Assembly: GCA_001797465.1 (NCBI GenBank)
Contig: MGPQ01000004.1
Span: 1-64,000 of the forward strand
Origin: Deltaproteobacteria bacterium GWB2_55_19
GTDB taxonomy: Bacteria > Desulfobacterota > GWC2-55-46
DNA length: 64,000 bases
Direction of reading: 5' to 3'
Part shown: one piece after another, positions 7,310 through 29,764 of the stretch
How positions within the stretch are numbered: position 1 is the first letter of the stretch
Layout of the letters: every line of letters begins with the position of its first letter
The notes under the pieces: model-generated
What the model saw: only the letters and a program-made list of their open reading frames with translations
The model's database searches: none
Told to the model about the DNA's origin: nothing
Position numbers and translations under genes: made by a program

Positions 7310-7732
7310 ATGGAGCTTGTAAGGATACAGAGGGAGAATTTTTCGATAAACGAGGAGGTCGAGCGCGTTAAGGCCGCCTCCAAGGGCATCGGAGGCGTCG
7401 TCGTGTTCCTTGGCGCGGCGCGGGACTTCTCGAAAGGCGAAACCATAACCGGGCTCGACTTCGAGCACTACCCGGGCATGGCTGAGGCCAAACTCAAGGA
7501 CATACGCGAGCGGGCGCTAAGGAACTTCGACATAATCGAGCTTGGCATCGTCCACAGGGTGGGCAAAATAGATATCGGCGAGGACATCGTCCTCATAACC
7601 GCGGCCTCCGCCCACCGGAACGACGCCTTCATGGCCTGCGAGTGGGCGATAACTGAACTTAAGAGGACGACACCCATCTGGAAGAGGGAGACGACAAAGG
7701 GGGGGGACGTTTGGGTATCGGAGACGCCTTAG
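7310..7732 (+). CDS. moaE: Molybdopterin synthase catalytic subunit
   Basis: The 140-residue protein carries MoaE features: GGVVVFLGAARDFSKG, GLDFEHYPGMAE, IVHRVGKIDIGE, SAHRNDAFMACEWAI and the catalytic-lysine region TPIWKRE. It inserts two sulfurs into cyclic pyranopterin with MoaD. ATG 7310 is preferred over GTG 7304 because AAGGA at 7296-7300 is nine bases from the ATG and only three from the GTG. The TAG stop at 7730-7732 overlaps the outer edge of an inverted-repeat element starting at 7731, so the element appears to supply part of the stop codon. Confidence 0.93.
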   Translation: MELVRIQRENFSINEEVERVKAASKGIGGVVVFLGAARDFSKGETITGLDFEHYPGMAEAKLKDIRERALRNFDIIELGIVHRVGKIDIGEDIVLITAASAHRNDAFMACEWAITELKRTTPIWKRETTKGGDVWVSETP

Positions 7733-7858
7733 CAGGCCGCTCAAACAGTCCATCTGCTTTGTTGTCATCGTCGCTCGTCACTGCGGCGTACATACAAAAG
7801 TACGCCTCATGCCTCGCTCCTCGACGCCTCGCATCTGGAGCTTTTTGAGCAGCCTGCT
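7731..7858. repeat. Dispersed inverted-repeat element, copy A
   Basis: The ends AGCAGGCCGCTCAAACAG (7731-7748) and CTTTTTGAGCAGCCTGCT (7841-7858) are inverted repeats with two mismatches over 18 bp. Inside, GGCGTAC (7785-7791) and GTACGCC (7800-7806) form a second stem. Segment 7811-7855 matches 62116-62160 of copy C at 41 of 45 positions. The left end overlaps the moaE stop codon. It has no coding capacity. It belongs to the same family as the copies at 24760, 62088 and 63732. Confidence 0.85.
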
Positions 7859-7926
7859 ACGATGGGATTGAGGGGAGGGTGATGTCAGTCAAGGCCCACA
7901 TACCCCCAAATGACAGAAAGGTTTTT

Positions 7927-8418
7927 ATGATAACAGTCGGAATACTTACGATGAGCGACAAGGGGTCGAAGGGCGAGCGGGAGGACTTGAGCGGCAAGGA
8001 GATCGAGCGGATGATAAAGGAGCTCCCCTCCGAGGTCAAGGCCTATGAGGTCATCCCCGACGAGGTCTCTGTCATAAAGGCGAAGCTTATCGAGTACGCG
8101 GATGTAAAAAAGCTCGACCTCATTTTGACGACAGGGGGCACCGGCGTGACCCCGCGGGACGTGACTCCGGAGGCTACTAAGGCGGTAATCGAGAGGGAGC
8201 TCCCCGGCATGTCTGAGGCGATGAGGGCGGAGAGCCTGAAAAAAACGCCGAACGCGATGATATCGAGGGCTGTCTGCGGGATAAGAAAAGAGTCCCTCAT
8301 AATAAACCTGCCCGGGAGCCCGAGGGCGGTCCGCGAAAATCTCGCCGTCGTCATGCCCGCGCTCGTTCATGCGGTAGAGAAGATAAAGGGGAGCCCGTCG
8401 GAGTGCGCGGCGCCGTGA
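7927..8418 (+). CDS. mog: Molybdopterin adenylyltransferase (MogA/MoaB family)
   Basis: The 163-residue product has the MoCF-binding fold: ITVGILTMSDKGSKGEREDLSG, LILTTGGTGVTPRDVTPEAT and INLPGSPRAVRENL. Such enzymes adenylylate molybdopterin before molybdate insertion, completing the moaD-moaE-mog set. ATG 7927 is chosen because family members begin at this point and GAAAGG lies six bases upstream. An in-frame ATG at 7882 with a G-rich upstream would add 15 residues and cannot be excluded. MogA and MoaB cannot be separated by eye. Confidence 0.9.
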   Translation: MITVGILTMSDKGSKGEREDLSGKEIERMIKELPSEVKAYEVIPDEVSVIKAKLIEYADVKKLDLILTTGGTGVTPRDVTPEATKAVIERELPGMSEAMRAESLKKTPNAMISRAVCGIRKESLIINLPGSPRAVRENLAVVMPALVHAVEKIKGSPSECAAP

Positions 8419-8467
8419 GACGGTCTTAGCAATAAATCTTTTTGATGGATTGTGTGAGTGGGTCTTT

Positions 8468-8510
8468 AGGGGCGCGGCTGTTCAAGCCGCGCCCCTTGTG
8501 TTTTGTTTTG
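8468..8510 (+). terminator. Strong hairpin terminator after mog
   Basis: A perfect 12-bp stem, AGGGGCGCGGCT (8468-8479) against AGCCGCGCCCCT (8485-8496), encloses a five-base loop and is followed by the T-rich TGTGTTTTGTTTTG. It ends the molybdenum-cofactor operon and lies in the convergent space before the minus-strand proline dehydrogenase. Confidence 0.85.
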
Positions 8511-8577
8511 CAGAAGCACATGAAGCGCTCACGAGGCGAGCGAATGGAGGGAGGAGGGTGACCCCCTAACAGCCTTG

Positions 8578-9426
8578 CTAATCAAACAAATTCCTCACCA
8601 CAAAGTATATGTTCTCCTTCCTCTCTCTTAGCCTCCTTATCGTATACGGCAACCAGTCCCTCCCGTAAGGTATGTAGGTCCTGACCTGAAAGCCTTCTTC
8701 GGCAAGACTCCTTTGTAGAGACCGTTTAATCCCCAAAAGCATCTCGAACTCGAAGGAGCTTCGCGATATCTTCTTTTCATCGGCGAACCTTTTCGCCTCG
8801 TTTATAATTTTTTCGTCGTGCGTGGCTATGGCCGTCATGTTCCCTGAGAGGAGAAGCTGTTTCATGAGACGCTCGAAATTATCGTCCACATCCTTCTTGT
8901 TTTTGAACGCTATATCAGGCGGTTCCTTGTACGCGCCCTTGACGAGACGGACGCTACCGCCTTTCGAGATGAGGAGCTTAACGTCTGCCTCGCTCCGTTT
9001 TAAATAGCTCTGAATCGCTATTCCGATATTCGGGAAACGGCGCTTAAGGCTTATGTAAGCATCTATCGTCCTCTGCGTGCAGGCCGAGGACTCCATGTCG
9101 AACCAGACTGTGTTGTTATATTGAAGGGCGCGCTCGATTACAACAACGGCGTTTGTCTCTGCGAGTGCCTCTGATATATCGAGGCCCAGGTGGGTTAGCT
9201 TCAGGGATACAACGGCGCTTACGCCTGCGCACCTGATTTCATCGAGGAGCGAGAGATATTCTGCTACGGTCTCATCCGCTTCCTCCTTCGTCTTTATGTT
9301 CTCCCCGAGGTGATCTATCGCCGCGAGTATTCGCAGGGAGTTGAGCCTCTTTGCCGTCTCTATCGCATCAGACCTTTCAGTCCCAGCGATATAGCGTTTG
9401 GCGAAGAGGGAGAGGAGCCCCTTCAT
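8578..9426 (-). CDS. Proline dehydrogenase (PRODH domain, monofunctional)
   Basis: The 282-residue protein (from MKGLLSLFAKRYIAG) has the FAD-dependent PRODH barrel pattern: SLKLTHLGLDI, VWFDMESS, GIAIQSYLKRSE, GSVRLVKGAYKEP, TAIATHDEKI, FEFEMLLGI and the substrate-binding YIPYGRDWLPYTIRRLRER. It oxidises proline to pyrroline-5-carboxylate and passes electrons to quinone. It is the short monofunctional type without a P5C dehydrogenase domain. Its start overlaps the end of the upstream GTPase-like gene by four bases. A longer frame exists upstream, but it lies within that gene. The aldehyde dehydrogenase at 15.1 kb could provide the next step; that is inference. Confidence 0.88.
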   Translation of the reverse strand: MKGLLSLFAKRYIAGTERSDAIETAKRLNSLRILAAIDHLGENIKTKEEADETVAEYLSLLDEIRCAGVSAVVSLKLTHLGLDISEALAETNAVVVIERALQYNNTVWFDMESSACTQRTIDAYISLKRRFPNIGIAIQSYLKRSEADVKLLISKGGSVRLVKGAYKEPPDIAFKNKKDVDDNFERLMKQLLLSGNMTAIATHDEKIINEAKRFADEKKISRSSFEFEMLLGIKRSLQRSLAEEGFQVRTYIPYGRDWLPYTIRRLRERKENIYFVVRNLFD

Positions 9427-17161: not shown

Positions 17162-17265
17162 ACTGCTCGGCGCAGGGCCAAGGTCTCGAACGGGGCCTTT
17201 AGGGCAAATCAATTCTCAGCCGTTAGATACGGGTTTGCCAGTCCGGCCAGAACCCTCAAAATAAA

Positions 17266-17294
17266 AACCCCGCCTTTTTGTGGCGGGGTTTTTT
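17266..17294. terminator. Bidirectional terminator between SH3 protein and tRNA-Gly
   Basis: The stem AACCCCGCC (17266-17274) pairs with GGCGGGGTT (17282-17290). T-runs follow on the plus strand (17289-17294) and A-runs precede it (17263-17267), which become T on the minus strand. It can end the SH3 gene from the left and the tRNA transcript from the right. Confidence 0.8.
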
Positions 17295-17667: not shown

Positions 17668-18090
17668 ATGAAGCTCAAGTTAGTTGTCGGTCAGCCTAGG
17701 AACTTTGACGCAGGGGACAAGACCAACGTCATCATAGGGACAGTGGTAGAGGGGCTCGAAGGGTCCCGCTCCTTTGACTTCGACCCTTTGGTAAGGGCCC
17801 TCAAGGAAGACAAGAGGAATGAACAGATAACCGAGCACTGGTTCGTGGTAAAGAGCGCAAGCCCGGTCCCGTTCGAGGGGGCCACGGCCTTCACGAGCAT
17901 CCTCCTCATGCCAAGGTACAGGACAAAAAAGCCGCCTCTTGAGATCATTAAGGCTGGGGAGACCATCGTCTGCAACGGCATGTGGCGGCAGGACGGCGGG
18001 GAGTGGGACACGGCTTCCATACAGGCGGCACAGGAAGGCACGCTCGACGTCCAGGGCGTAATAGTAACGAATGTGACGTTCATGGAGTAG
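17668..18090 (+). CDS. Conserved-looking protein of unknown function
   Basis: The 140-residue acidic-to-neutral protein (MKLKLVVGQPRNFDAG...) has no signal peptide, membrane segment or motif that I recognise. It looks mixed alpha/beta, with a beta-rich C-terminal half (ETIVCNGMWRQDGGEWDT, TLDVQGVIVTNVTF). The start has a good ribosome binding site and an upstream sigma-70-like promoter, codon use resembles its neighbours, and a weak hairpin follows. It appears to be an expressed single gene. No function is proposed. Confidence 0.6.
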   Translation: MKLKLVVGQPRNFDAGDKTNVIIGTVVEGLEGSRSFDFDPLVRALKEDKRNEQITEHWFVVKSASPVPFEGATAFTSILLMPRYRTKKPPLEIIKAGETIVCNGMWRQDGGEWDTASIQAAQEGTLDVQGVIVTNVTFME

Positions 18091-18333: not shown

Positions 18334-18374
18334 TCTGCGCCGGTTAGTATATTATGGCGGGGGAGGGCGTTAAA

Positions 18375-19253
18375 ATGGGGTACAGGGTTCTTGTTACAGG
18401 CATAGGCGGCCCTGCCGGGAGGTCCGCTACAAGGTACTTCCGCGGCAGAGGGGCCTTTGTAATAGGCGCCGACGTAAGGGAGGTAGAAGAGAAGGCGGAT
18501 GAGTTCCTGACCCTCACGCTCGCCACAAGCCCGTCTTTTCCGGAGGCGCTTCTCAGCCTTATAAGGCAGAGGCGTCCGGCCCTCTTCGTCCCGACCGTCA
18601 CCGAGGAGCTTTTGACTGTCGCAAGGCTGAAACCCGAAATAGAAGCGCTCGGGTGCGCCGTATTCATCTCTTCCCATGCGGCCGTAGCGATAGCCAACGA
18701 CAAGTTCAAGACGGCCGTATGCATGAGAGAGGGCGGGGTGCCAGTGCCAAAGACCCTCGACGGCTCTTGCCCGAGGGAGGTAGTTATCCAGGAGCTCGGG
18801 CTCCCGCTACTCGCAAAGCCTGTCTTCGGGCGGGGCGGCAGGGGGGTAAAGGTCTATAATACGGACGAAGAGGTGATGAAAGAGGACCGCTCTGGTATAA
18901 TATTCCAGGAGTTCATACCTGGCGTTGAGTTCGACGTAAACCTCTTCGTGGACAAGGGCGGAAAAGAGCAGGCGGCCGTAGCGCTTAAAAAAACGGCGCT
19001 CAAGGAAGGGATCGTCGGCAACGCAACGGGTGTCGAGCGGGTCTCGAAAAACGACGTTGTCGAGGTCGCGAGGCTCGCCTCCCGGCTCCTTACCCTCGAA
19101 GGGCCTCTCGACTTCGATGTGAGGTTAAGGGGAGACGGCAGTCCCGCGCTCCTTGAGATAAATGCGAGGCTCGGCGGCAATTCGCTCTCAGCCGTCGAGG
19201 TCCTCGACGCGCTGGCAGAGGCGTTCGAGAAAGGTTGCATGGGAAGGGATTAA
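18375..19253 (+). CDS. ATP-grasp ligase-like protein (CarB-like)
   Basis: The 292-residue protein begins with a Rossmann-type pre-ATP-grasp unit (GYRVLVTGIGGPAGRSATRY, VIGADVRE) and continues with NDKFKTAVCMREGGVPVPKT, a nucleotide-binding loop LAKPVFGRGGRGVKV, FQEFIPGVEFDVNLFVD and the metal-binding end LLEINARLGGNS. This is the carbamoyl-phosphate-synthase-like ATP-grasp pattern. ATG 18375 is preferred over 18354 because GGAGGG lies eight bases before it. Such enzymes join a carboxylate to an amine or similar nucleophile; the substrate is unknown. It ends 30 bases before the outer-membrane gene of the exopolysaccharide-like cluster and may modify a precursor for it (inference). Confidence 0.8.
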   Translation: MGYRVLVTGIGGPAGRSATRYFRGRGAFVIGADVREVEEKADEFLTLTLATSPSFPEALLSLIRQRRPALFVPTVTEELLTVARLKPEIEALGCAVFISSHAAVAIANDKFKTAVCMREGGVPVPKTLDGSCPREVVIQELGLPLLAKPVFGRGGRGVKVYNTDEEVMKEDRSGIIFQEFIPGVEFDVNLFVDKGGKEQAAVALKKTALKEGIVGNATGVERVSKNDVVEVARLASRLLTLEGPLDFDVRLRGDGSPALLEINARLGGNSLSAVEVLDALAEAFEKGCMGRD

Positions 19254-19283
19254 AAACGGACAGACGATAAGGAGGACTCGAAA

Positions 19284-20615
19284 GTGAAGCGCAAATGGAA
19301 CGCACTACTGATCGCAGGGTTGCTGGCGGTCTCATCGGCGGCATACGCGCAGGCGCCTGGCTACAATGACGCGCAGAGGCTTATTGACTCGGGCGCGTAC
19401 TCGGCGGCTGAAGACATGGCTGAAAAGCTCGTCTCCGCGGAGCCGGGAAACGCGAGGTACAGAGAGCTCCTCGGCGACGTTTACAGGAAAGAGGGGCGTT
19501 ATGACGAGGCCATGGCCGAATATTCGAAGGCGAAAGAGCTCGGCGGCGAGAACGCAGGGCTTATGAAATCCATCGGCTCCATTCAAAAGAGGCAGAGGAT
19601 CAACAAGGCCTCTGCGGAATCCTACAAGAGGGCCTTGAGGCTCGACCCGAAGGACCGGGAGGCGGCTGGCGATCTCGCCTCCCTTGAGAGGTCCAGGGGT
19701 CTTACGCTACGCGCTTCAATCGGCGGGGCGGAGGCCGACTACACGACCGACAGCTATGAGGCGGCGCTCTCCTACGGCGGGGTCGACAGGCTTGAGCTTA
19801 ACGCCGGCTACGGCTACACGGAAAATATTTACTACACGAGGGACAAGTTCTTCGGCTCGGCCTATTACTTTTACAGGCCGGACTCCTACTTCAAGGTTTA
19901 TGCGGCCCAAAAGGACTACGACTACCCGGTGGACTCAGCCGTACAGAAGCCGAACCCGGACACGAACTCATACGATACTGTCCCGGTATTCGAAGCCGAG
20001 ATATCCCACTGGCTCACCAAAAACTTCCGGGGATCCTTCATATACGAGTACTTCCGCCCAACGTTCTTTTACGACCAGGATTCGACCGCTTCCAACCATA
20101 AGTTCACGACAGAGGCATATTATATAACCCCGAACCCGGCGATAAGGCTGAAAGCCATGTTCGCGGTGCTCCGCGACCCGGACTCCCAGTCTACCGAGAT
20201 AAAGGGGAGGGACAACCTGAACACCGCGCCCGGCGAGGCGGCCGAGACAGACGTCCATTACAAGACGACCTCGCTCCTTGGCGCGGGCATAGAGTACTCG
20301 AAGGACCGGTGGAACGCGGAGATCAAGTACCTCCCGAACAGAGACCTTGACGACAGCTACGATTACTCCATACTCGCGGGGCTTGCCTACGACTTTACCG
20401 AAAGGCTCACCGGCAGGTTCGACTATGTATATGACAAGTACTCTACGGACTCCAACTACTCGGGCGAGACGGCTAACGTCTATCTTCTGTCCGCCTTATA
20501 CGGGATAACCCCGTCGACGGACATCGGCGTGGGCTATAAGAGATTGTCGCTCCCGACAAGCGACGACAACGCCGCGTTCCTGACGTTTTCCTACAAGACC
20601 GGCTTAGGGTTCTGA
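19284..20615 (+). CDS. TPR plus outer-membrane beta-barrel protein (YaiO/PgaA-like architecture)
   Basis: The 443-residue protein starts at GTG 19284 with GGAGG eight bases upstream. Residues 1-22 are a signal peptide ending AYA. Residues 27-135 contain TPR units (RELLGDVYRKEGRYDEAMAEY, AESYKRALRLDPKD). Residues 140-443 alternate aromatic and polar residues as in an outer-membrane barrel (ELNAGYGYTENIYY, FSYKTGLGF) and end with the C-terminal Phe typical of such proteins. TPR-barrel proteins (PgaA, BcsC, PelB types) export polysaccharides made by inner-membrane synthases; YaiO of E. coli is a smaller relative of this type. Its TGA overlaps the next ATG as TGATG, so the genes are coupled. Confidence 0.75.
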   Translation: MKRKWNALLIAGLLAVSSAAYAQAPGYNDAQRLIDSGAYSAAEDMAEKLVSAEPGNARYRELLGDVYRKEGRYDEAMAEYSKAKELGGENAGLMKSIGSIQKRQRINKASAESYKRALRLDPKDREAAGDLASLERSRGLTLRASIGGAEADYTTDSYEAALSYGGVDRLELNAGYGYTENIYYTRDKFFGSAYYFYRPDSYFKVYAAQKDYDYPVDSAVQKPNPDTNSYDTVPVFEAEISHWLTKNFRGSFIYEYFRPTFFYDQDSTASNHKFTTEAYYITPNPAIRLKAMFAVLRDPDSQSTEIKGRDNLNTAPGEAAETDVHYKTTSLLGAGIEYSKDRWNAEIKYLPNRDLDDSYDYSILAGLAYDFTERLTGRFDYVYDKYSTDSNYSGETANVYLLSALYGITPSTDIGVGYKRLSLPTSDDNAAFLTFSYKTGLGF

Positions 20616-22438
20616 TGTTATCGATACTGCTCGCGGGGTTTCTCCTGCAGGCTACCTATATAGACCTCTTCAACGAGGGGCACAGGCTCCTTGACCAGGG
20701 CAATCCCAGGGAGGCGGAAGCGGTTCTTAAGGAATCCGCCTCCATGAACCCAGGCTACGCGCCCGCTTACAAGGAGCTCGCCGAGGCCTATGTGGGACTG
20801 AAAAGGCTTCCGGAGGCGATAGAGCAGTACCAGAAGGCCGTGCAATTGAGCCCCAAGGACATGCGCGCGAGGGCGCGCCTCGCCGAGCTCTTCTCATGGT
20901 CCGGCAACCACGACAAGGCGATAGTCATATACAGGGACGCGCTCGAAGCGGACCCTGAAAACCCTGTTTTATTGAACGGGCTTGCGACGGTCTTAAGGTG
21001 GTCGCACAGGTATGACGAGGCCGAGAGGCTCTATCGGGAGGTGTTGACAACTGAACCCGAGAACCACGAGGCCTTGAAAGGCCTCGGCAAGACATTTTCG
21101 ATGACCGGGGACTTCACCTCAGCAGTCTCGGTCTTCCAGAAGGCTATCTCCATTTACCCCGAGGACTCGGAGCTTAGAAAAGAGCTCGGGACGGTCCTTG
21201 CCTGGCAGAAGGACTTCAAGAGCGCGGTCGTCGAGGTCAAAAAGTCGATAGAGCTTGCCCCGAACTATACCGAGGCGCACAGGACCTTAGGCGACATATA
21301 CCTCTGGATGAGGTCGTACAACGAGTCCCTTAGCGCCTACAAGAAGGCGACGGACCTGGAGCCTGACAATATCGAGAACCACCTGCTGCTCTCCAGGCTC
21401 CACAGGGAGATGGGCGACAAGCACGCCGCCGAGGAGTCGATAAAGGCGGCGCTCAGGATCGACCCTGCCTCGGCCAACGCGCTTGAGCTCCTCCGGGAGC
21501 TTAGAGGCGGCGACAGCCGGATCATCGTAAACAGGATAGGGGATATAGTCGAGCTCGCCGCGTTCGCATTCGTCTTCATACTCCTCTTTTTCACATACAG
21601 GACGAGGAGGCGGATGTTGCTCCGCCGCCACAAGGTCTACAAGTATTTCATCACCATAGCCCTCCCCGCGCTCGTCACAATGACGCTCCTCGCATTTGCC
21701 GGGAAGTTCACCTTTCTCGAATGGGTAGACGCCAACCTCATTGAGGACGTGACGGAGGCCGTGCTCTTCGTCACGCTCGGCTCGTCCCTCATGGCGCTCC
21801 TCTGGACCGAGAGGCGCGTCCATGATTTTACGAACATGACCATACTCGCGGTCGGCGCCCACCCCGACGACATCGAGCTCGGTTGCGGAGGCTTCATCAT
21901 GAAGGCCAAGGACAGCGGGGCGAAGGTCTACGGCCTCACCATGACGCGCGGGGAGAAGGGGGCCGAAAAGAGCGGCGTGAGGGAAGGGGAGCTTCGAAAA
22001 GCCGCGCTCTTCATGGAGCTCGACGGCGTCTCTGTAATGGAGTTTCCCGACACGGGCCTTAAGGACGCAGTCCCGCAGATGAAGGAAGAGATGGAAAAGA
22101 TGATAAGGGAGACGGGCGCCACACTCGTACTCACCCATTCGCAGATAGACATACACACCGACCACCAGGCGGTATTCGAGGCTACGAAGGTGGCGGCGAG
22201 GAACATCTCCGTCCTTTGCTACGAGGACGTCTCCACCCCGAGGGAGTTCGTCCCTAACTACTTCGTCGACATCGGCTCGTACATTGAAGACAAGATGAAG
22301 CTCGTTTCCCTCCACAGGACCCAGAACGAGAAGAACTACATGGACCCGGAGGTCATAAAGGGCCGGGCCGCCCACAGGGGCATCCAGGGCGGGGTCCAGT
22401 TCGCCGAGGCGTACAGGATTTACAAGCTCTTGCAATGA
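20615..22438 (+). CDS. Membrane-anchored TPR protein with C-terminal PIG-L deacetylase
   Basis: The 607-residue protein has a hydrophobic N-terminus, about eight TPR units (residues 15-295), three transmembrane segments (about 311-328, 344-362, 380-397) and a PIG-L/LmbE domain (408-607). The zinc motif is AHPDD (415-419) with a second motif HTDH (514-517), both intact. The loop RTRRRMLLRRHK after the first helix suggests it is cytoplasmic. That places the TPRs in the periplasm and the deacetylase in the cytoplasm. PIG-L enzymes de-N-acetylate GlcNAc-type sugars. It sits between the barrel and the synthase with overlapping stops and starts, so it probably modifies the exported polymer or its precursor. 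Confidence 0.85.
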   Translation: MLSILLAGFLLQATYIDLFNEGHRLLDQGNPREAEAVLKESASMNPGYAPAYKELAEAYVGLKRLPEAIEQYQKAVQLSPKDMRARARLAELFSWSGNHDKAIVIYRDALEADPENPVLLNGLATVLRWSHRYDEAERLYREVLTTEPENHEALKGLGKTFSMTGDFTSAVSVFQKAISIYPEDSELRKELGTVLAWQKDFKSAVVEVKKSIELAPNYTEAHRTLGDIYLWMRSYNESLSAYKKATDLEPDNIENHLLLSRLHREMGDKHAAEESIKAALRIDPASANALELLRELRGGDSRIIVNRIGDIVELAAFAFVFILLFFTYRTRRRMLLRRHKVYKYFITIALPALVTMTLLAFAGKFTFLEWVDANLIEDVTEAVLFVTLGSSLMALLWTERRVHDFTNMTILAVGAHPDDIELGCGGFIMKAKDSGAKVYGLTMTRGEKGAEKSGVREGELRKAALFMELDGVSVMEFPDTGLKDAVPQMKEEMEKMIRETGATLVLTHSQIDIHTDHQAVFEATKVAARNISVLCYEDVSTPREFVPNYFVDIGSYIEDKMKLVSLHRTQNEKNYMDPEVIKGRAAHRGIQGGVQFAEAYRIYKLLQ

Positions 22439-24759
22439 CGCTCCCATTACTCGCCATATTCCATTCCTTCGGGGCCGTTATATTCTTTCTCGGACTCCAG
22501 GGGATGCTATTCCTCCCCCTTACCCTCGTATACGAGCTCTGGAAGTCCCGTTTCCTCAAAAGAACGGACCGTTTTATCGGCAGGGTCACTGTCCTTATCC
22601 CGGCGTACAACGAGGAGAAGACGATAAGGGCGACGATAACGTCGGTACTCGCCTCCGTCTATCCGTCTTTCGAGGTCATCGTCGTAAACGACGGCTCAAC
22701 AGACGCTACCGAAGACGCGATAGCCGACTTCATCCGTGAAAAAACCATCCGCTACATAAAGAAACCGAACAACGGAAAGGCGTCCGCGCTGAACGCCGGC
22801 ATTGAGGCCGCCGAAGGCGAGGTCGTCATATTCACGGACGCGGATTCGATATTCCTCCCGGATACGATTGCGAAGATGGCCCGCTGGTTCGCCGACAGCT
22901 CCATCGACGCGGTCTGCGGCAACGACGCGCCTCTGCACCCGTCGACCGCGATACAGAAGTTCCTGACCATCACTACGCACATCGGCACCGGTTTCGTAAG
23001 ACGCGCCTTGTCTGTCATGAGGTGCCTGCCCATCATCACCGGGAACCTCGGGGCGATAAGGACGAAGGTACTGCGCGATATTGGGGGCTTCAGGGAGATA
23101 TGGGGGGAGGACCTTGAGATTACGTTCAGGCTGTACAGGCACGGCAAGAGGATAATCTTCGACCCCGAACCACGGGTAATAGCCGAGTGCCCCGGGACCA
23201 TTGGCGGCCTCTGGAAGCAGAGAGTAAGGTGGATAAGGAGCTACATAAAGATATCGCTTATCCACAGGGGGCTCTTTTTCAACCCCCGATACATGCCGTT
23301 CTCCCTGTATCTACCCATAAACTTCCTCAATATGGCCGTTCTGCCTCTACTGCAAATACTCATGCTCTTCCTCATACCGTGGGCGTACATCGGAGGGCAC
23401 CTCTACTTCATCGATACGATGGAGATATTGAGTTTTCTGGGCGTCGTCTTCTTCTTCGGCATCGCGGTTTATTCCATCGCCCTCGACCGAGAGTTCCTCG
23501 ATTACAGGTATATTTTTTACGGCCTTCTTATACTTCCGCTATCGTACTTCTACAACCTTGTGGCGGCGTACTCCTGGATAAAGGAGCTCGAGGGAGCCCC
23601 TGAGAAGTGGGAGAAGACAGAGAGGAGGCGCGTATTCGCGCTTGCGCGCCCGAAGTGGGAGTACGCGGTGGCGGCGGTATTCCTTATAGTCTCGTCCTCC
23701 GTTGCCACTTACTATGCCATTAACTACCTTAAGGCCCCCTCTATTTACAACGCGAGGTTCGCCCTCGGCCTTTCCACCCACTTCGACGCCTGGGGCGACT
23801 GGCGGAAGGCCGTCTCCAGCGTCCTCAACAGGCCGGACGTCGGCGGCGGCAGGATAATAGGCGTAAGCGCCGGAAGGCCGGAGTGGGCGTACTTCAAATG
23901 GAAGGGGCATGAGGGCAGTTGGTCGAACCACCAGAGGGGCGCGAAGGAAGACCTCGTCGAGAGGGCGGCAACGACATTCAAGAGGGCCGGGTTCAAGGTG
24001 GCGGCCTTCATAGACATCTACGGCCCGGCCTACATCGAGAAGCACCCGGGAGCCGCGGCCGTGGGGTTCGACGGCAAGGCCAATACAGAACAGCTCGGCT
24101 TCATGGAGCTTACGGAGGGAGAGTGGGGCCGCCTCGTGCTTGACATGGTCGAGTACCTCGCGAAGAACTACCCGATAGACGTGATTGACTTAACCGAGAT
24201 GCCGTATTACAGCTACTCGTACAATACCGCGGATCTCAAGTCCTACGCCGCCCTGACCAATAGGGCCGACTGGCCGAGGACCGCCGAGGGCCTCGTGGAC
24301 AGGGACGACCCGTCTATCTGGGAGTGGCGCTCGACCCTCATGGAGGAGTTCATCAGGAAGGCCGCCGAAAGGGCGCACAGGCACGGCAAGGAGTTATATG
24401 TAGACGTGCCTGTCAGCTGGAAGGACTTCGCCAACAACGGCAGGGAATCGGGGCTCGATTACAGGCGGGTCTTGAGGCACGCGGATAATATCGTCGTATG
24501 GAACTATTTCTACCTCGAGGGGCTCCCGTCTTCTTCCTCAGAGGGGCTTTCCAGATACATGTCGGCCAACTTCGCCCCTGACGACTACTACATATCATTG
24601 GGGCTCTGGGGCAAGACCTCCGCGATGGACCCGAAGACATTTTCCGAGGGGCTTAAATACACGATGGACGGCGGCTCCAGGAGGATATGGGTCACGCCGG
24701 ACTCCATGGTCACGGACGACCACTGGAGGGAGTTGGTGAAGCAGTTGAAGGGCGATTAA
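22435..24759 (+). CDS. GT2 polysaccharide synthase fused to large periplasmic domain
   Basis: The 774-residue protein has an N-terminal helix (about 12-33) and a GT2 domain with VTVLIPAYNEE (51-61), TDADS (D135, D137), GED (224-226) and QRVRW (262-266), the full processive-synthase set seen in PgaC and cellulose synthases. Several membrane helices (about 292-325, 331-349, 358-380, 410-430) follow. Residues 435-774 form a soluble domain placed in the periplasm by the basic segment before the last helix. This domain has alpha/beta barrel-like segments (VIDLTEMPYYSYSY, ELYVDVPVSW, NIVVWNYFYLEG, RIWVTPDS) suggestive of a glycoside-hydrolase-like fold, not firmly assignable. ATGA overlap couples it to the PIG-L gene. 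Confidence 0.85.
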   Translation: MTLPLLAIFHSFGAVIFFLGLQGMLFLPLTLVYELWKSRFLKRTDRFIGRVTVLIPAYNEEKTIRATITSVLASVYPSFEVIVVNDGSTDATEDAIADFIREKTIRYIKKPNNGKASALNAGIEAAEGEVVIFTDADSIFLPDTIAKMARWFADSSIDAVCGNDAPLHPSTAIQKFLTITTHIGTGFVRRALSVMRCLPIITGNLGAIRTKVLRDIGGFREIWGEDLEITFRLYRHGKRIIFDPEPRVIAECPGTIGGLWKQRVRWIRSYIKISLIHRGLFFNPRYMPFSLYLPINFLNMAVLPLLQILMLFLIPWAYIGGHLYFIDTMEILSFLGVVFFFGIAVYSIALDREFLDYRYIFYGLLILPLSYFYNLVAAYSWIKELEGAPEKWEKTERRRVFALARPKWEYAVAAVFLIVSSSVATYYAINYLKAPSIYNARFALGLSTHFDAWGDWRKAVSSVLNRPDVGGGRIIGVSAGRPEWAYFKWKGHEGSWSNHQRGAKEDLVERAATTFKRAGFKVAAFIDIYGPAYIEKHPGAAAVGFDGKANTEQLGFMELTEGEWGRLVLDMVEYLAKNYPIDVIDLTEMPYYSYSYNTADLKSYAALTNRADWPRTAEGLVDRDDPSIWEWRSTLMEEFIRKAAERAHRHGKELYVDVPVSWKDFANNGRESGLDYRRVLRHADNIVVWNYFYLEGLPSSSSEGLSRYMSANFAPDDYYISLGLWGKTSAMDPKTFSEGLKYTMDGGSRRIWVTPDSMVTDDHWRELVKQLKGD

Positions 24760-24840: not shown

Positions 24841-25244
24841 TCGGGTTTGTAACCTGAGCCCATTAATTCGTAACTCGATATACGCTTGTATGCGCTCGTC
24901 GAACCTTCTGCCAATGGCCTTTTTGCACGCTCAGCGCGCTTATGCGAAGGGGCTCCTAACGCTTTCACCCCCGTCCTTCCGCTTGCGCGCCCCTTGAGCG
25001 CTTCGCCTCTTCCTCCCTTATGCGTTCTCCGCCCTGCGCCTGTGTATTGGTAAAACGGAACAAATTTTTTTATTTTTCAAAAATACCCAGGCATGGGGTG
25101 AGGGATCTGGCTGAACGAAGTGAAGCCCAACCATTCTGTTGTAGCATCCCGCGTCAAGCCCAAAAACTTTTCTCCTCGCAAGTCCCGTGGAAAAAGCACT
25201 CCTCTTCTGCTATGCTGAAATCAACGAACCATCAAGGAGCATTG
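24841..25244. other. Non-coding spacer between synthase and export operon
   Basis: I see no convincing gene in these 404 bases. An open frame from 25020 runs into the HlyD gene, but it lacks a ribosome binding site at its far start and has atypical composition. GAACGAAGTGAAGCCCAACC near 25113 resembles the CGTAGCGAAGCCCAACG stretch of copy B (24801-24817), so the spacer may hold degraded repeats. AAGGAG at 25234-25239 belongs to the HlyD gene. Confidence 0.5.
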
Positions 25245-26306
25245 ATGCCAAAGCGCAAAAAGCTTTTTCTCGCCCTCGCACTCCTCGCAATCGCCGTTGC
25301 AACAGGCGTGTTTTTAAGGACAAGGCACAGGTCGCCTGAAAATCTCGTAGCAACGACCGGCGTCATGGAGGCGACTGAAGTTGAGCTCTCCTCCAAGACA
25401 GCAGGGAAGATCGAATGGCTCTGCTGTAAGGAAGGGGACGCGATAAACGCCGGGGATACCGCGATAAGGCTTGATTCAGCCGAGATAAAGGCGAGGGTAG
25501 AGGAGAAGGGGGCGGCTTTGACTGGCGCGGAGAGCGGTATAACGGAGGCGAAGGTCGCGCTCGAGAACGCATTCGCCCAGAATGAATCGGCGCTCTTCGA
25601 TTCCGAGGCAACGATGGCCGAGGTTGAACGCGCACTCGCCCTTCTGAATGAAGCGAAGAAGAACGTCGAGAGGGCGAGGGGGTTATTCAAGGACGGGTAC
25701 ATGGCGAAGAAGGACATGGACGCGGCAGAGGCGGCGAACGCATCCGCGTCCGCGGTGCTTTCTACCGCAAGGGCGCGCTCCCGTAGCTCCCAGGCAACAT
25801 TGAAGAACTCTGAGGTCAACATAAAGGCGGCGCGCGCGAGGATAAATTCCGCCGAATCCAGGAAGGCAGAGGCCGAGGCAGAGCTGAAGGCGCTGCTCGC
25901 CGGGCTCGATGATACCGTTATAACGTCGCCGATAAACGGTGTTATAGTTTACAAGGCGTTCGAGGCCGGGGAGTTCGCGGCCCCAGGGGCCCCAATTTAT
26001 ACCATAGACGATCTGTCGAACCTCTGGGCGAGGGTTGATATAGAGGAGAGCGGCATCCAGAGGATCACGCTCGGCGCGGCCGCGAAGGTCGCGCTTCCCG
26101 GAGGCGCGTCCTACGACGGGAAGGTCGTCGAGATCGGCGAGGTCGGGTCTTTCGCAACGCAAAGGGACGTTACAAGGGGCAGGCCCGACATCAAGACCTT
26201 CAGGGTAAAGGTGTCTGTTGCGGGCCACGTAGGGGCGCTTAAGCCCGGGATGACGGTAGACGTTAGTATATCGACCGAGCAGGCGAATGTACGCGATAGA
26301 GACTGA
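25245..26306 (+). CDS. HlyD-family periplasmic adaptor of ABC exporter
   Basis: The 353-residue protein has one N-terminal membrane helix (LFLALALLAIAVATGVFL), a split lipoyl-like region (MEATEVELSSKTAGKIEWL and TVITSPINGVIVYKAFEAGE), a long alanine/glutamate-rich coiled coil (about residues 75-200) and a beta-barrel end. ATG 25245 follows AAGGAG by five bases. It would join an inner-membrane ABC transporter to an outer-membrane channel, as YbhG does with YbhFSR in E. coli. It overlaps the ATPase gene by 20 bases. No outer-membrane factor is adjacent. Confidence 0.87.
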   Translation: MPKRKKLFLALALLAIAVATGVFLRTRHRSPENLVATTGVMEATEVELSSKTAGKIEWLCCKEGDAINAGDTAIRLDSAEIKARVEEKGAALTGAESGITEAKVALENAFAQNESALFDSEATMAEVERALALLNEAKKNVERARGLFKDGYMAKKDMDAAEAANASASAVLSTARARSRSSQATLKNSEVNIKAARARINSAESRKAEAEAELKALLAGLDDTVITSPINGVIVYKAFEAGEFAAPGAPIYTIDDLSNLWARVDIEESGIQRITLGAAAKVALPGGASYDGKVVEIGEVGSFATQRDVTRGRPDIKTFRVKVSVAGHVGALKPGMTVDVSISTEQANVRDRD

Positions 26307-27288
26307 AAACCTTGTAAAAAAATACGGCGGCCTCACTGCCCTTGACGGGGTAACGCTTAAGATCCCCGAGGGCGACTGCTTCGGGCTACTCGGGCCGAAC
26401 GGCGCGGGTAAGACGACGCTCATCAGGATACTGACGACTCTTATAAGGCCTACGAGCGGCATGGCAAAGGTGGCCGGGTTCGACGTCTTGAAGGAGAAGG
26501 CGGGCGTCCGTAGCGCGATAGGGGTCGTCCCGCAGGCGATGACGAGCGACCTTGACCTTACGGGCCTTGAGATAATGGATATCTACGCCCGCTTCTACGG
26601 CATGGGGAAAAAGGAGAGGCGGGAGAGGACGGACGAGCTCCTCTCGATGGTCGGGCTCCGAGAGCGCGCCGGCGACTTGATCGCCACATACTCCGGCGGC
26701 ATGAGGAGGAGGCTCGAGATAGCGCGCGGCCTCGTGCACAGGCCCTCGATACTCATACTGGACGAGCCTACCATAGGCCTCGACCCGCAGTCGAGGCGCG
26801 TCGTATGGGAGCTTTTGGAGAAGTTCAGGAAGGGCGACAATCTCACCATACTCCTTACGACCCACTACATGGAAGAGGCCGAGTATCTCTCAGACCACGT
26901 CGCCATTATCGACTACGGGCGGATAGTGGCGCTCGATACGGTAGAGGGGCTTAAAAAGGCCATCCCGCAGAAGGACACCATGGAGCTTACGGTCTCCAAC
27001 ATCGACATGGCAAAGGCGCGGGAGGCGGTCTCGGCCCACCCGTCGGTCGGCTCCGTCGCGGTTAACGAGGCAACGCTCATCATCTCGGTGGACAACGGCG
27101 CGAACGCCATACCCGAGCTCGTGGATAAGCTCCGTGCGCTGAACGCGAAGGTCACGAGGGTGACTTTAAAGGAGCAGACCCTCGAAGACGTATTCATACA
27201 CTTCACGGGCCGGCCCATAAGGGAGGAGGAGGCGCGCAAGGTCAGCTTCCTCCTTGGGGCGGGGGTCCCGAGGCAGTGGGGCAAATGA
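26287..27288 (+). CDS. ABC transporter ATP-binding protein (DrrA/YbhF-like)
   Basis: The 333-residue ATPase shows Walker A GPNGAGKTT, Q-loop in GVVPQAMTSD, signature YSGGMRRRLEIARGL, Walker B LILDEPTIGLD and the switch histidine in LTTHYMEEAE. The C-terminal 100 residues form the extra domain of the DrrA/NatA group. It powers the ABC-2 permease encoded next. The start lies inside the adaptor gene, showing tight coupling. Confidence 0.92.
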   Translation: MYAIETENLVKKYGGLTALDGVTLKIPEGDCFGLLGPNGAGKTTLIRILTTLIRPTSGMAKVAGFDVLKEKAGVRSAIGVVPQAMTSDLDLTGLEIMDIYARFYGMGKKERRERTDELLSMVGLRERAGDLIATYSGGMRRRLEIARGLVHRPSILILDEPTIGLDPQSRRVVWELLEKFRKGDNLTILLTTHYMEEAEYLSDHVAIIDYGRIVALDTVEGLKKAIPQKDTMELTVSNIDMAKAREAVSAHPSVGSVAVNEATLIISVDNGANAIPELVDKLRALNAKVTRVTLKEQTLEDVFIHFTGRPIREEEARKVSFLLGAGVPRQWGK

Positions 27289-27346
27289 CGCAGGCTATCT
27301 CCAAAAATTCCTAATTTTTAGAGGTAGCCGATAACGGAATGAAGCC

Positions 27347-28468
27347 ATGAACCGTTTCAAAGCCATATTAGAGAGAGATCTGAGAAAATTCATAAGGAAC
27401 CCGCTCGTCGTGGCGATGAGCGTCCTTATGCCGGTCATCTACCTCGTCATACTCGGGAACTCTTTTCAGGGCGAGCTTAAGCGCCTGCCTGTTGCCGTTG
27501 TCGACCAGGACAAAGGCCCCGGCGCTGAATGGGTGATGGAGCGCCTGAGCGCGTTGGAGGCAGGCCCGCGGACAGTGGAGGTGATAAGGGTCTCGTCCCA
27601 GGGCTTCGCGATGGAGGCTTTGAGGGAAGGCGTCTTCAAGGGGGTCGTCATCATCCCGCCGGGATTCAGCAGGGACCTCGCAAGGGGCTCGCTTGCGGAG
27701 ATAGGGCTCTTCCTCGACAACGCCGAGACGATAGCCGCCGCAACCGTGCAGTCGGCAATCGCGCGGGCCGTATCAGAACCCGGCATGGAGTTCGTAAGCG
27801 TCAGGGAGGAGAGGGCCGGAGCGCGCCTGAGGCCCATAGAAATCTATGGTAAAATAGACTACGATCAGACGCTCATCCCTGGGGTCGTCATCATGGCTAT
27901 TTTTTTAGGCGCCATGACGACCGGCGCCTTTAATATCGTGATGGACCGTTTTTTAGGCGTCGAGGAGAGCTACTTCCTGACCCCGCTTACCAAGAGCGAT
28001 ATCGTCGTTGGGCTTGTAGCGAGCGGCCTCCTCATAACGACGATAATAGCGGTCGTCGTCCTTTTTTTCAGCTCCCTCATATCCGGCATTTACCTGTGGA
28101 GGCTCCTGACCATCGATGGTTTTCTGCTTATGCTCGCTGTCATCGTGCTCTCCACGCTCGGGCTCCAGGGGCTCATGTTCGTCATAATGGGACGCTTGAA
28201 CCACCCGAGGATAGTCGGCATACTCGGCGGCTTCATGAACGTAATTTTCTTCTTCCCGAGCGGGGCGATATACCCGACCGAGTCTTTCCCTGCCTGGTTG
28301 AAGGCCTTTGCGATAGTCAACCCGGAGACATACTCGGTGCACGCGCTGCGCGCCCTCATGTTCAAGGGGGCCGGTTTTGGGGCGGTTAAGGGTGATATGG
28401 CCTTTCTCGCGGTATTTGCGGTCCTCGCCGTCATCGCCGGCACGGCGGCCTTCAAGAGGGAGCTCTGA
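27347..28468 (+). CDS. ABC-2 type permease
   Basis: The 373-residue membrane protein has an N-terminal helix after NRFKAILERDLRKFIRNP, a large periplasmic loop (about residues 45-175, VAVVDQDKGPGAEW, IYGKIDYDQTLIPG) and five C-terminal helices including a conserved-looking PSGAIYPTESFPAWLK, the ABC-2 layout of YbhS/YhiH. It completes an adaptor-ATPase-permease exporter. Only one permease is present, so it probably forms a homodimer. The substrate (drug, lipid or polysaccharide) is unknown. Proximity to the exopolysaccharide cluster may be coincidental, since a 485-base spacer separates them. Confidence 0.88.
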   Translation: MNRFKAILERDLRKFIRNPLVVAMSVLMPVIYLVILGNSFQGELKRLPVAVVDQDKGPGAEWVMERLSALEAGPRTVEVIRVSSQGFAMEALREGVFKGVVIIPPGFSRDLARGSLAEIGLFLDNAETIAAATVQSAIARAVSEPGMEFVSVREERAGARLRPIEIYGKIDYDQTLIPGVVIMAIFLGAMTTGAFNIVMDRFLGVEESYFLTPLTKSDIVVGLVASGLLITTIIAVVVLFFSSLISGIYLWRLLTIDGFLLMLAVIVLSTLGLQGLMFVIMGRLNHPRIVGILGGFMNVIFFFPSGAIYPTESFPAWLKAFAIVNPETYSVHALRALMFKGAGFGAVKGDMAFLAVFAVLAVIAGTAAFKREL

Positions 28469-28585
28469 GCCGCGTTGAAGCCCGGAAGTTGTGCGGTGAT
28501 AAAAAAACGATAGAATACAAGGATAGACAGTACGGTTTATTGACACATACGCGCCTCAACCTGCGCGTTTAGGAAGGACAGCGAT

Positions 28586-29764
28586 ATGGAACCCAAAAAG
28601 ATAAAGGAAGGCGTTTACTGGGCCGGGGCAGAGGACTGGGACAGGAGGCTCTTCGACTCCCTCATCCCTTTGCCGGACGGGACGAGCTATAACGCCTATA
28701 TCGTAAAGGGCAGGGACAAGACGGCGCTCATCGACACGGTCGACCCCACGAAGGCGAAGACGCTCCTTACTTTCCTCGACTCGCTTGAGCGTCTCGATTA
28801 CATTATCGCCCAGCACGCGGAGCAGGACCACTCCGGGACGATACCGTCGGTCCTGAAAAAATTCCCGGAGGCAAAGGTCCTCTCGACCCCGAAGGGCAAG
28901 GAGTTCCTGACGGACCTCCTGGAGCTTCCGTCGGACGCTATCGTCATTGTCGCTGACAACGAAACACTCGACCTCGGCGGAAAGACGCTTGAGTTCCTGC
29001 ATACCCCCTGGATACACTGGCCAGAGACGATGTCGACTTATCTTAGAGAGGACGCGATACTCTTCACCTGCGACCTCTTCGGCTCGCACCTTGCCTCGTC
29101 CAATATATACGTCGATGACTTCGCCAGGGTCTGCGAGGCGTCGAAGAGGTATTACGCGGAAGTGATGATGCCTTTCAGGGCGACGATAAAAAAGCATATG
29201 GAGAGGTTCGAAAAATTTAAGATAGAGATAATCGCCCCGAGCCACGGCCCGGTCCACAGGGACCCCGCGCGCATAATCGCTTCACACGGGGAGTGGGTCT
29301 CGGACAAGCTGTCCAACACGGTAGTCATTCCATACGCGACTATGCACGGGTCTACTGAAGCGCTCGTCGAGAGTCTTACGGACGCGCTCGTCGAAAGGGG
29401 CGTATTCGTCGACAGGTTCAATATAGCCGTTACAGACGCCGGAAAGCTCGCGATGGCGCTTGTGGACGCGCCGACGGTCGTCTTCGGCACCCCTACGATA
29501 CTCATAGGCGCGCACCCCTTTGCCATGCACGCGGCCTTCATGGTGAACGCCCTTCGGCCCAAGATGAAATATTCATCCGTCATCGGCTCATTCGGCTGGG
29601 GAGGCAAGGCCGCGGAGCAGATAGTCTCCGCGATATCAGGGACAAAGGCCGAGGTCCTCGAGCCGGTGATGGTCAAGGGCAGGCCGAAGGCAGGCGACTT
29701 CGAGCGTATAGGGCGGCTCGCAGGGGATATAGTAAAGAGGCACAGTGGACTGGGTCTCCTTTAA
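28586..29764 (+). CDS. Flavodiiron protein (FprA type, O2/NO reductase)
   Basis: The 392-residue protein has a metallo-beta-lactamase-like domain with the diiron ligands HAEQDH (H77, E79, D81, H82), HTPWIHWPETMSTY and CDLFGSH, followed by a flavodoxin domain from about residue 250 (PYATMHGSTEAL, FGTPTILIGAHPF, GSFGWGGKA). It lacks a rubredoxin extension, so it is the two-domain class A type. It reduces oxygen to water or nitric oxide to nitrous oxide in anaerobes. It is ten bases upstream of yjbQ. With the ferritin-like protein at 14.5 kb it points to an anaerobe or microaerophile. Confidence 0.94.
   Translation: MEPKKIKEGVYWAGAEDWDRRLFDSLIPLPDGTSYNAYIVKGRDKTALIDTVDPTKAKTLLTFLDSLERLDYIIAQHAEQDHSGTIPSVLKKFPEAKVLSTPKGKEFLTDLLELPSDAIVIVADNETLDLGGKTLEFLHTPWIHWPETMSTYLREDAILFTCDLFGSHLASSNIYVDDFARVCEASKRYYAEVMMPFRATIKKHMERFEKFKIEIIAPSHGPVHRDPARIIASHGEWVSDKLSNTVVIPYATMHGSTEALVESLTDALVERGVFVDRFNIAVTDAGKLAMALVDAPTVVFGTPTILIGAHPFAMHAAFMVNALRPKMKYSSVIGSFGWGGKAAEQIVSAISGTKAEVLEPVMVKGRPKAGDFERIGRLAGDIVKRHSGLGLL

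Follow-up and report, generated by a model that had tools for sequence, protein, structure and literature searches.

A conserved four-gene cassette with a synthase–hydrolase fusion, probably for synthase-dependent exopolysaccharide export, in Deltaproteobacteria bacterium GWB2_55_19

Both PgaA and BcsC combine TPRs with a 16-strand outer-membrane barrel, and the TPR region of PgaA scaffolds PgaB and binds PNAG (PMC9384988). Variations on this theme have been described. Among the PgaB clades of Bundalovic-Torma et al. are glycosyltransferases (GTs) fused to a CE4 domain, without the hydrolase and without PgaA (PMC7112194), and in the MatAB system of Streptomyces a TM helix connects a GT2 with a glycan-processing domain outside the cytoplasm, which in MatB is a CE4 deacetylase (PMC5972031). 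Here we describe a cassette of four genes, all on the + strand at 18354/18375-24759 of the window, by which we mean the whole stretch of 64,000 nucleotides that was analysed. Its features are as follows.

18375..19253, + strand: ATP-grasp ligase-like enzyme of the CarB/PylC type, cytosolic; longest ORF from 18354
19284..20615, + strand: TPR and outer-membrane barrel exporter; GTG start
about 19356-19691, + strand: TPR helices of the outer-membrane protein, after the signal peptide (TPR Pfam matches)
about 19701-20597, + strand: 16-stranded beta-barrel (AF2 model)
20615..22438, + strand: TPR–3TM–PIG-L protein (Pfam PIG-L, TPR)
about 21845-22435, + strand: PIG-L deacetylase domain, predicted to be cytosolic (Pfam PF02585)
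22435-24759, + strand: GT2 fusion protein, whole gene
22435..23724, + strand: processive GT2 synthase module with TM helices, residues 1-430 (PgaC_IcaA best NCBIfam model)
23746..24756, + strand: fused C-terminal glycoside-hydrolase-like TIM barrel, residues 438-774 (AF2, VIA-align)

Like PgaABCD of E. coli and Bordetella, the cassette brings together a PgaC-like GT2, a PgaB-like hydrolase fold, TPRs with a 16-strand barrel, and a de-N-acetylation enzyme. The arrangement differs, however: the hydrolase is fused to the synthase, whereas that of PgaB is joined to the deacetylase; the PIG-L domain is predicted to be cytosolic, whereas the CE4 domain of PgaB is periplasmic; and an ATP-grasp enzyme and a second TPR array, on an inner-membrane protein, are added, while neither a PgaD-like partner nor a c-di-GMP receptor was seen within the cassette. 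With BcsC/BcsA/BcsZ it shares the TPR and 16-strand barrel, the processive GT2 and a hydrolase on the periplasmic side, predicted in our case, but no BcsB or PilZ was seen, and the hydrolase is synthase-fused and PgaB-like. Fusion of a GT to a polymer-modifying domain also occurs in the PNAG-like operons of the PgaB clades mentioned above, although in our cassette the fusion partner is a hydrolase and the barrel is present. Compared with MatAB, a hydrolase-like TIM barrel takes the place of the MatB CE4, and ATP-grasp and PIG-L proteins have not been reported for that system. The E. coli yaiO/yaiX/yaiP/yaiS set likewise holds a GT2, a PIG-L protein, a barrel and a putative acyltransferase, but its barrel is unrelated by sequence, and it lacks TPRs, hydrolase and ATP-grasp. 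Within the limited literature searched, we found no published example of a GT2 joined to a PgaB-like hydrolase, and no useful paper on PIG-L, ATP-grasp, TPR and PNAG in combination.

An initial, sequence-only reading of this DNA had described four same-strand genes, the last three joined by short overlaps, and the ORFs are exactly as described. Read from the ORF coordinates, TGATG forms the junction between the barrel and PIG-L genes, and ATGA that between the PIG-L and GT2 genes. For the ATP-grasp gene, the start at 18375 is better conserved among orthologues than that at 18354, and has GGAGGG upstream. Genes on either side were considered as parts of the system and rejected. The gene at 17668-18090, without a Pfam match, is retained only in close relatives; a terminator-like stem of 12 pairs (17263-17293) lies upstream of it. 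At 25020-29764 lies a gene for a membrane-fusion protein of the HlyD type, then one for an ABC ATPase and two more genes, and these too are found beside the cassette only in close relatives.

The fused GT2-hydrolase protein is encoded at ten loci in named MAGs (seven Deltaproteobacteria, two Nitrospirae and one Aminicenantes). Wherever the contig reaches, the order ATP-grasp, barrel, PIG-L, GT2 is constant, and at each locus of sufficient length the homologues lie side by side. Because this four-gene order is conserved across several phyla, a chance arrangement can be excluded. The cassette is nevertheless rare and patchy, being present in 6 out of 30 genomes of the window’s family, in a single one (the window’s own) of the 395 sampled genomes of its phylum, and in 1/297 and 2/296 genomes of two other phyla, all of which were genomes already found. 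This patchy distribution suggests that the cassette has spread horizontally. No relative of it was found in viral contigs.

The GT2 had been read as processive on the basis of its D, DxD, ED and QxxRW motifs, and these residues (D86, D135xD137, E225D226 and Q262xxR265W266) prove invariant in 5 orthologues. Its best NCBIfam model is PgaC_IcaA (154 bits, 6e-45), which falls short of the 422-bit cut-off for the PgaC equivalog (TIGR03937). Hydropathy alone leaves the membrane topology of the protein ambiguous. What the sequence-only reading overlooked is that the C-terminal ~337 aa, residues 438-774, form a glycoside-hydrolase-like TIM barrel, for which AF2 gives a confident model (pLDDT 87.7, pTM 0.89). 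The top five structural matches from VIA-align are all PgaB/BpsB hydrolase domains, led by 4p7o, 4p7n, 4p7l and 4p7q (Z 27.5-27.6, 3.0 Å over 304-312 residues) and followed by 6au1 (Z 26.4); next come Cwp19 (25.8) and GH42 enzymes (about 23). As the gap in Z between 6au1 and Cwp19 is below 1, the ranking favours PgaB over its neighbours without being decisive. The modelled domain has the C-terminal fold of PgaB (GH153; Z 27.6, 3.0 Å), and since its best structural matches are PgaB hydrolase domains, the protein appears to fuse a PNAG synthase-like with a PNAG hydrolase-like module.

At the level of sequence the kinship is far fainter. Residues 438-774 of the window’s protein have no Pfam match above threshold, GHL10 remaining below its gathering score, while 9 of 11 orthologues of the domain do match GHL10 (best 1.1e-5); GHL13 was not matched in the Pfam scan, and phmmer of the domain against the PDB returned nothing meaningful. 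Comparison with the PgaB/GHL13 profile by hhalign gave a weak link (score 38, probability 45%), where 30 shuffled or reversed decoys all scored 23 or less. In the sequence-profile alignment, the catalytic Asp of PgaB, which is D466 in E. coli and D474 in Bordetella (PMC5933820), falls on an invariant Glu, E588 (codon 24196-24198), that is also present in the Arthrobacter homologue discussed below. E588 is therefore a candidate catalytic acid, on the strength of that alignment. D451 is conserved too. With Glu in place of the PgaB Asp, and with some of the sugar-binding acids of PgaB apparently missing, the active site differs from that of PgaB. A second, stand-alone protein, matching GHL13 (the PgaB hydrolase family) at E 2.8e-24, is encoded on contig C20:73909-74832 of genome G000 (L059 about 7379-8938); it has an N-terminal hydrophobic, signal-like segment and lies outside any obvious polysaccharide cluster.

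The third protein had been described as a membrane PIG-L deacetylase with TPRs, and this description holds. It matches Pfam PF02585 (4.6e-26) as well as TPR families, and a predicted periplasmic TPR array is followed by TM helices at residues 308-326, 345-363 and 379-397. With its AHPDD (H416, D418, D419) and HxDH (H514/D516/H517) motifs, invariant in 9 orthologues, it belongs to the PIG-L deacetylase family, and no CE4 domain was detected by Pfam in any of the four cassette proteins. In 9/9 orthologues, the loop between TM1 and TM2 contains 7-9 K/R and 0 D/E. Because this loop is basic and free of acidic residues, the TPRs are placed outside and the PIG-L domain inside, so that the latter is predicted, from charge bias, to face the cytosol.

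The ATP-grasp protein matches ATP-grasp_3 in Pfam (6e-15), its nearest solved chains by sequence profile are 2pn1 and the L-amino acid ligase 3vot, and its Mg/ATP residues are conserved in 10 orthologues. By this fold and these residues it groups with the ATP-grasp carboxylate-amine ligases. It had been regarded as an extra enzyme, a view that we revise: it is core to the system, because it is retained in all complete cassettes, and also in an Arthrobacter that lacks the TPR and barrel parts.

This version came from a tblastn search of plasmids, in which Arthrobacter sp. StoSoilB13 gave one distant homologue of the hydrolase domain (28% identity, E 4e-30). Here the hydrolase is a separate protein with a signal sequence and the lipobox VAAC, and its adjacent neighbours are a PIG-L protein with three TM helices but without TPRs, an ATP-grasp enzyme and an unfused GT2, which are 40%, 39% and 39% identical to their counterparts in the window. 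When searched against the window’s own genome, the Arthrobacter ATP-grasp finds the cassette gene as its sole match, and the Arthrobacter GT2 matches that of the cassette at 5e-91 and nothing else better than 1e-26. Neither TPRs nor a barrel occur beside this set in the monoderm Arthrobacter, and this single locus suggests that the TPR and barrel parts are a diderm export add-on, dispensable where there is no outer membrane. The lipoprotein, likewise from one locus, supports an extracytoplasmic position for the hydrolase, and the fused domain is predicted to be periplasmic. The topology proposed here for the cassette proteins rests on this lipoprotein and the charge bias together. The Arthrobacter stretch (NZ_AP024649.1 809983-830870, our L063) belongs to a record filed as a 1.0-Mb plasmid, and PLSDB lists no genes for it. 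A phosphoenolpyruvate carboxylase-looking gene lies beside the cassette, so the record may be part of a chromosome.

In the AF2 model of the exporter, which is of modest confidence (pLDDT 78, pTM 0.62), a block of TPR helices precedes 16 strands. The barrel that had been proposed from sequence is thus predicted to form, and the model has the N-terminal TPRs and 16-strand outer-membrane barrel of TPR-barrel polysaccharide exporters. BcsC (9b8a) is the first Foldseek match, although TM-scores are low and other barrels follow close behind; VIA-align returned TPR matches, and therefore says little about the barrel part. The C-terminal 300 residues belong to no known family in curated profile scans. 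Against the PgaA export porin equivalog (TIGR03939), the protein scores 18.8 bits, from the TPR part only, with a cut-off of 366 and a score of 979 for E. coli PgaA, and hhalign to PgaA gave merely a 46-residue TPR match. The YaiO family (TIGR04390) gave no match at E 1, while E. coli YaiO scores 182 bits, and hhalign assigned a probability of 0.3%. By these curated models, the barrel is outside both families. A plasmid search with the barrel yielded no relative, and among the 395 sampled genomes of the phylum the barrel domain occurs in the window’s genome only.

From this gene set and order, their conservation, and the predicted folds and motifs, we infer that the cassette directs synthase-dependent exopolysaccharide export, with cytosolic de-N-acetylation of an amino-sugar polymer, its probable re-acylation and its extracytoplasmic trimming, a reading to which we assign a probability of roughly 0.7. 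On the cytosolic face, the GT2 would link amino-sugar units, probably of a HexNAc such as GlcNAc, into a chain that it threads across the inner membrane. Also anchored in this membrane, and facing the cytosol, the PIG-L domain would de-N-acetylate the precursor or the growing end, after which the ATP-grasp ligase would probably re-acylate the sugar by attaching a carboxylate, for instance that of an amino acid, to the amine so exposed. On the periplasmic side, the PgaB-like hydrolase domain tethered to the synthase may trim or grip the emerging chain, while the TPRs of the PIG-L protein and those of the outer-membrane protein would form a bridge to the 16-strand export barrel. By the curated PgaA and PgaC equivalog cut-offs the cassette is not a Pga member, even if it appears to work like one. 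Its recurrence in a few unrelated bacteria, and the Arthrobacter version with the enzymes but without the outer-membrane parts, point to a relative of the PNAG biofilm systems that has not been described before. Only tentatively do we suggest that its product is an undescribed class of exopolysaccharide, found in diderms and an actinobacterium, for which PIG-L de-N-acetylation in the cytosol and ATP-grasp re-amidation (e.g. with an amino acid) of the amino sugars would precede export via a hydrolase-bearing synthase.

Could this simply be a PNAG/dPNAG system, in which PIG-L replaces the CE4 of PgaB and the ATP-grasp enzyme helps to supply precursor, yielding partially deacetylated beta-1,6-GlcNAc? 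The PgaC-like GT2, the PgaB-like hydrolase fold and the TPR with 16-strand barrel would all fit. We nonetheless consider it rather unlikely, given the predicted cytosolic position of PIG-L and the divergent hydrolase active site; moreover, were its role one of supply, the ATP-grasp enzyme would not be expected to persist in all complete cassettes and in the Arthrobacter set, which has neither TPR nor barrel. The synthesis of bacillithiol and mycothiol follows another logic, that of a GT, a PIG-L deacetylase and a ligase, and the same trio in the cassette might make a glycolipid or small glycoside, which the TPR-barrel would move to the outer membrane. BshB1 is indeed among the PIG-L matches, and BshB and diacetylchitobiose deacetylases are among the closest proteins of solved structure. 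PIG-L enzymes of known substrate act mostly on small or lipid-linked glycosides, not on polymers, which speaks against a polymer-acting PIG-L. Conversely, the GT2 has processive-synthase motifs and a PgaC-like TM architecture, and a hydrolase-like domain, fused or as a lipoprotein, is together with a 16-strand barrel better suited to a polymer, making such a pathway quite improbable.

The sequence-only reading had related the locus in its logic both to PNAG and cellulose secretion, which is well supported, and to the E. coli yai set, which is not. The GT2 is 31% identical to YaiP and the PIG-L protein 32% to YaiS, resemblances at the general GT2 and PIG-L level, and a barrel is present in each; the putative acyltransferase yaiX would be analogous to the N-acylating step, and its pairing with PIG-L offers a loose parallel to deacetylation followed by re-acylation. 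The barrel, however, is not YaiO, the E. coli set is without TPRs or hydrolase, and its PIG-L protein is soluble-sized, so a YaiO/YaiP/YaiS-type system is a very improbable reading of the locus.

Read as an exopolysaccharide export cassette, these genes show PNAG modules in a novel combination: the synthase is fused to a hydrolase, the deacetylase is apparently cytosolic, an amide-forming enzyme is added, and a monoderm carries the set without the export parts. Such recombination offers a clean way to test which parts make the polymer and which merely export it. A further prediction is a matrix polymer of new chemistry, made by groundwater and subsurface lineages for which MAGs are the main source of knowledge, and one that may be approached through the Arthrobacter version.
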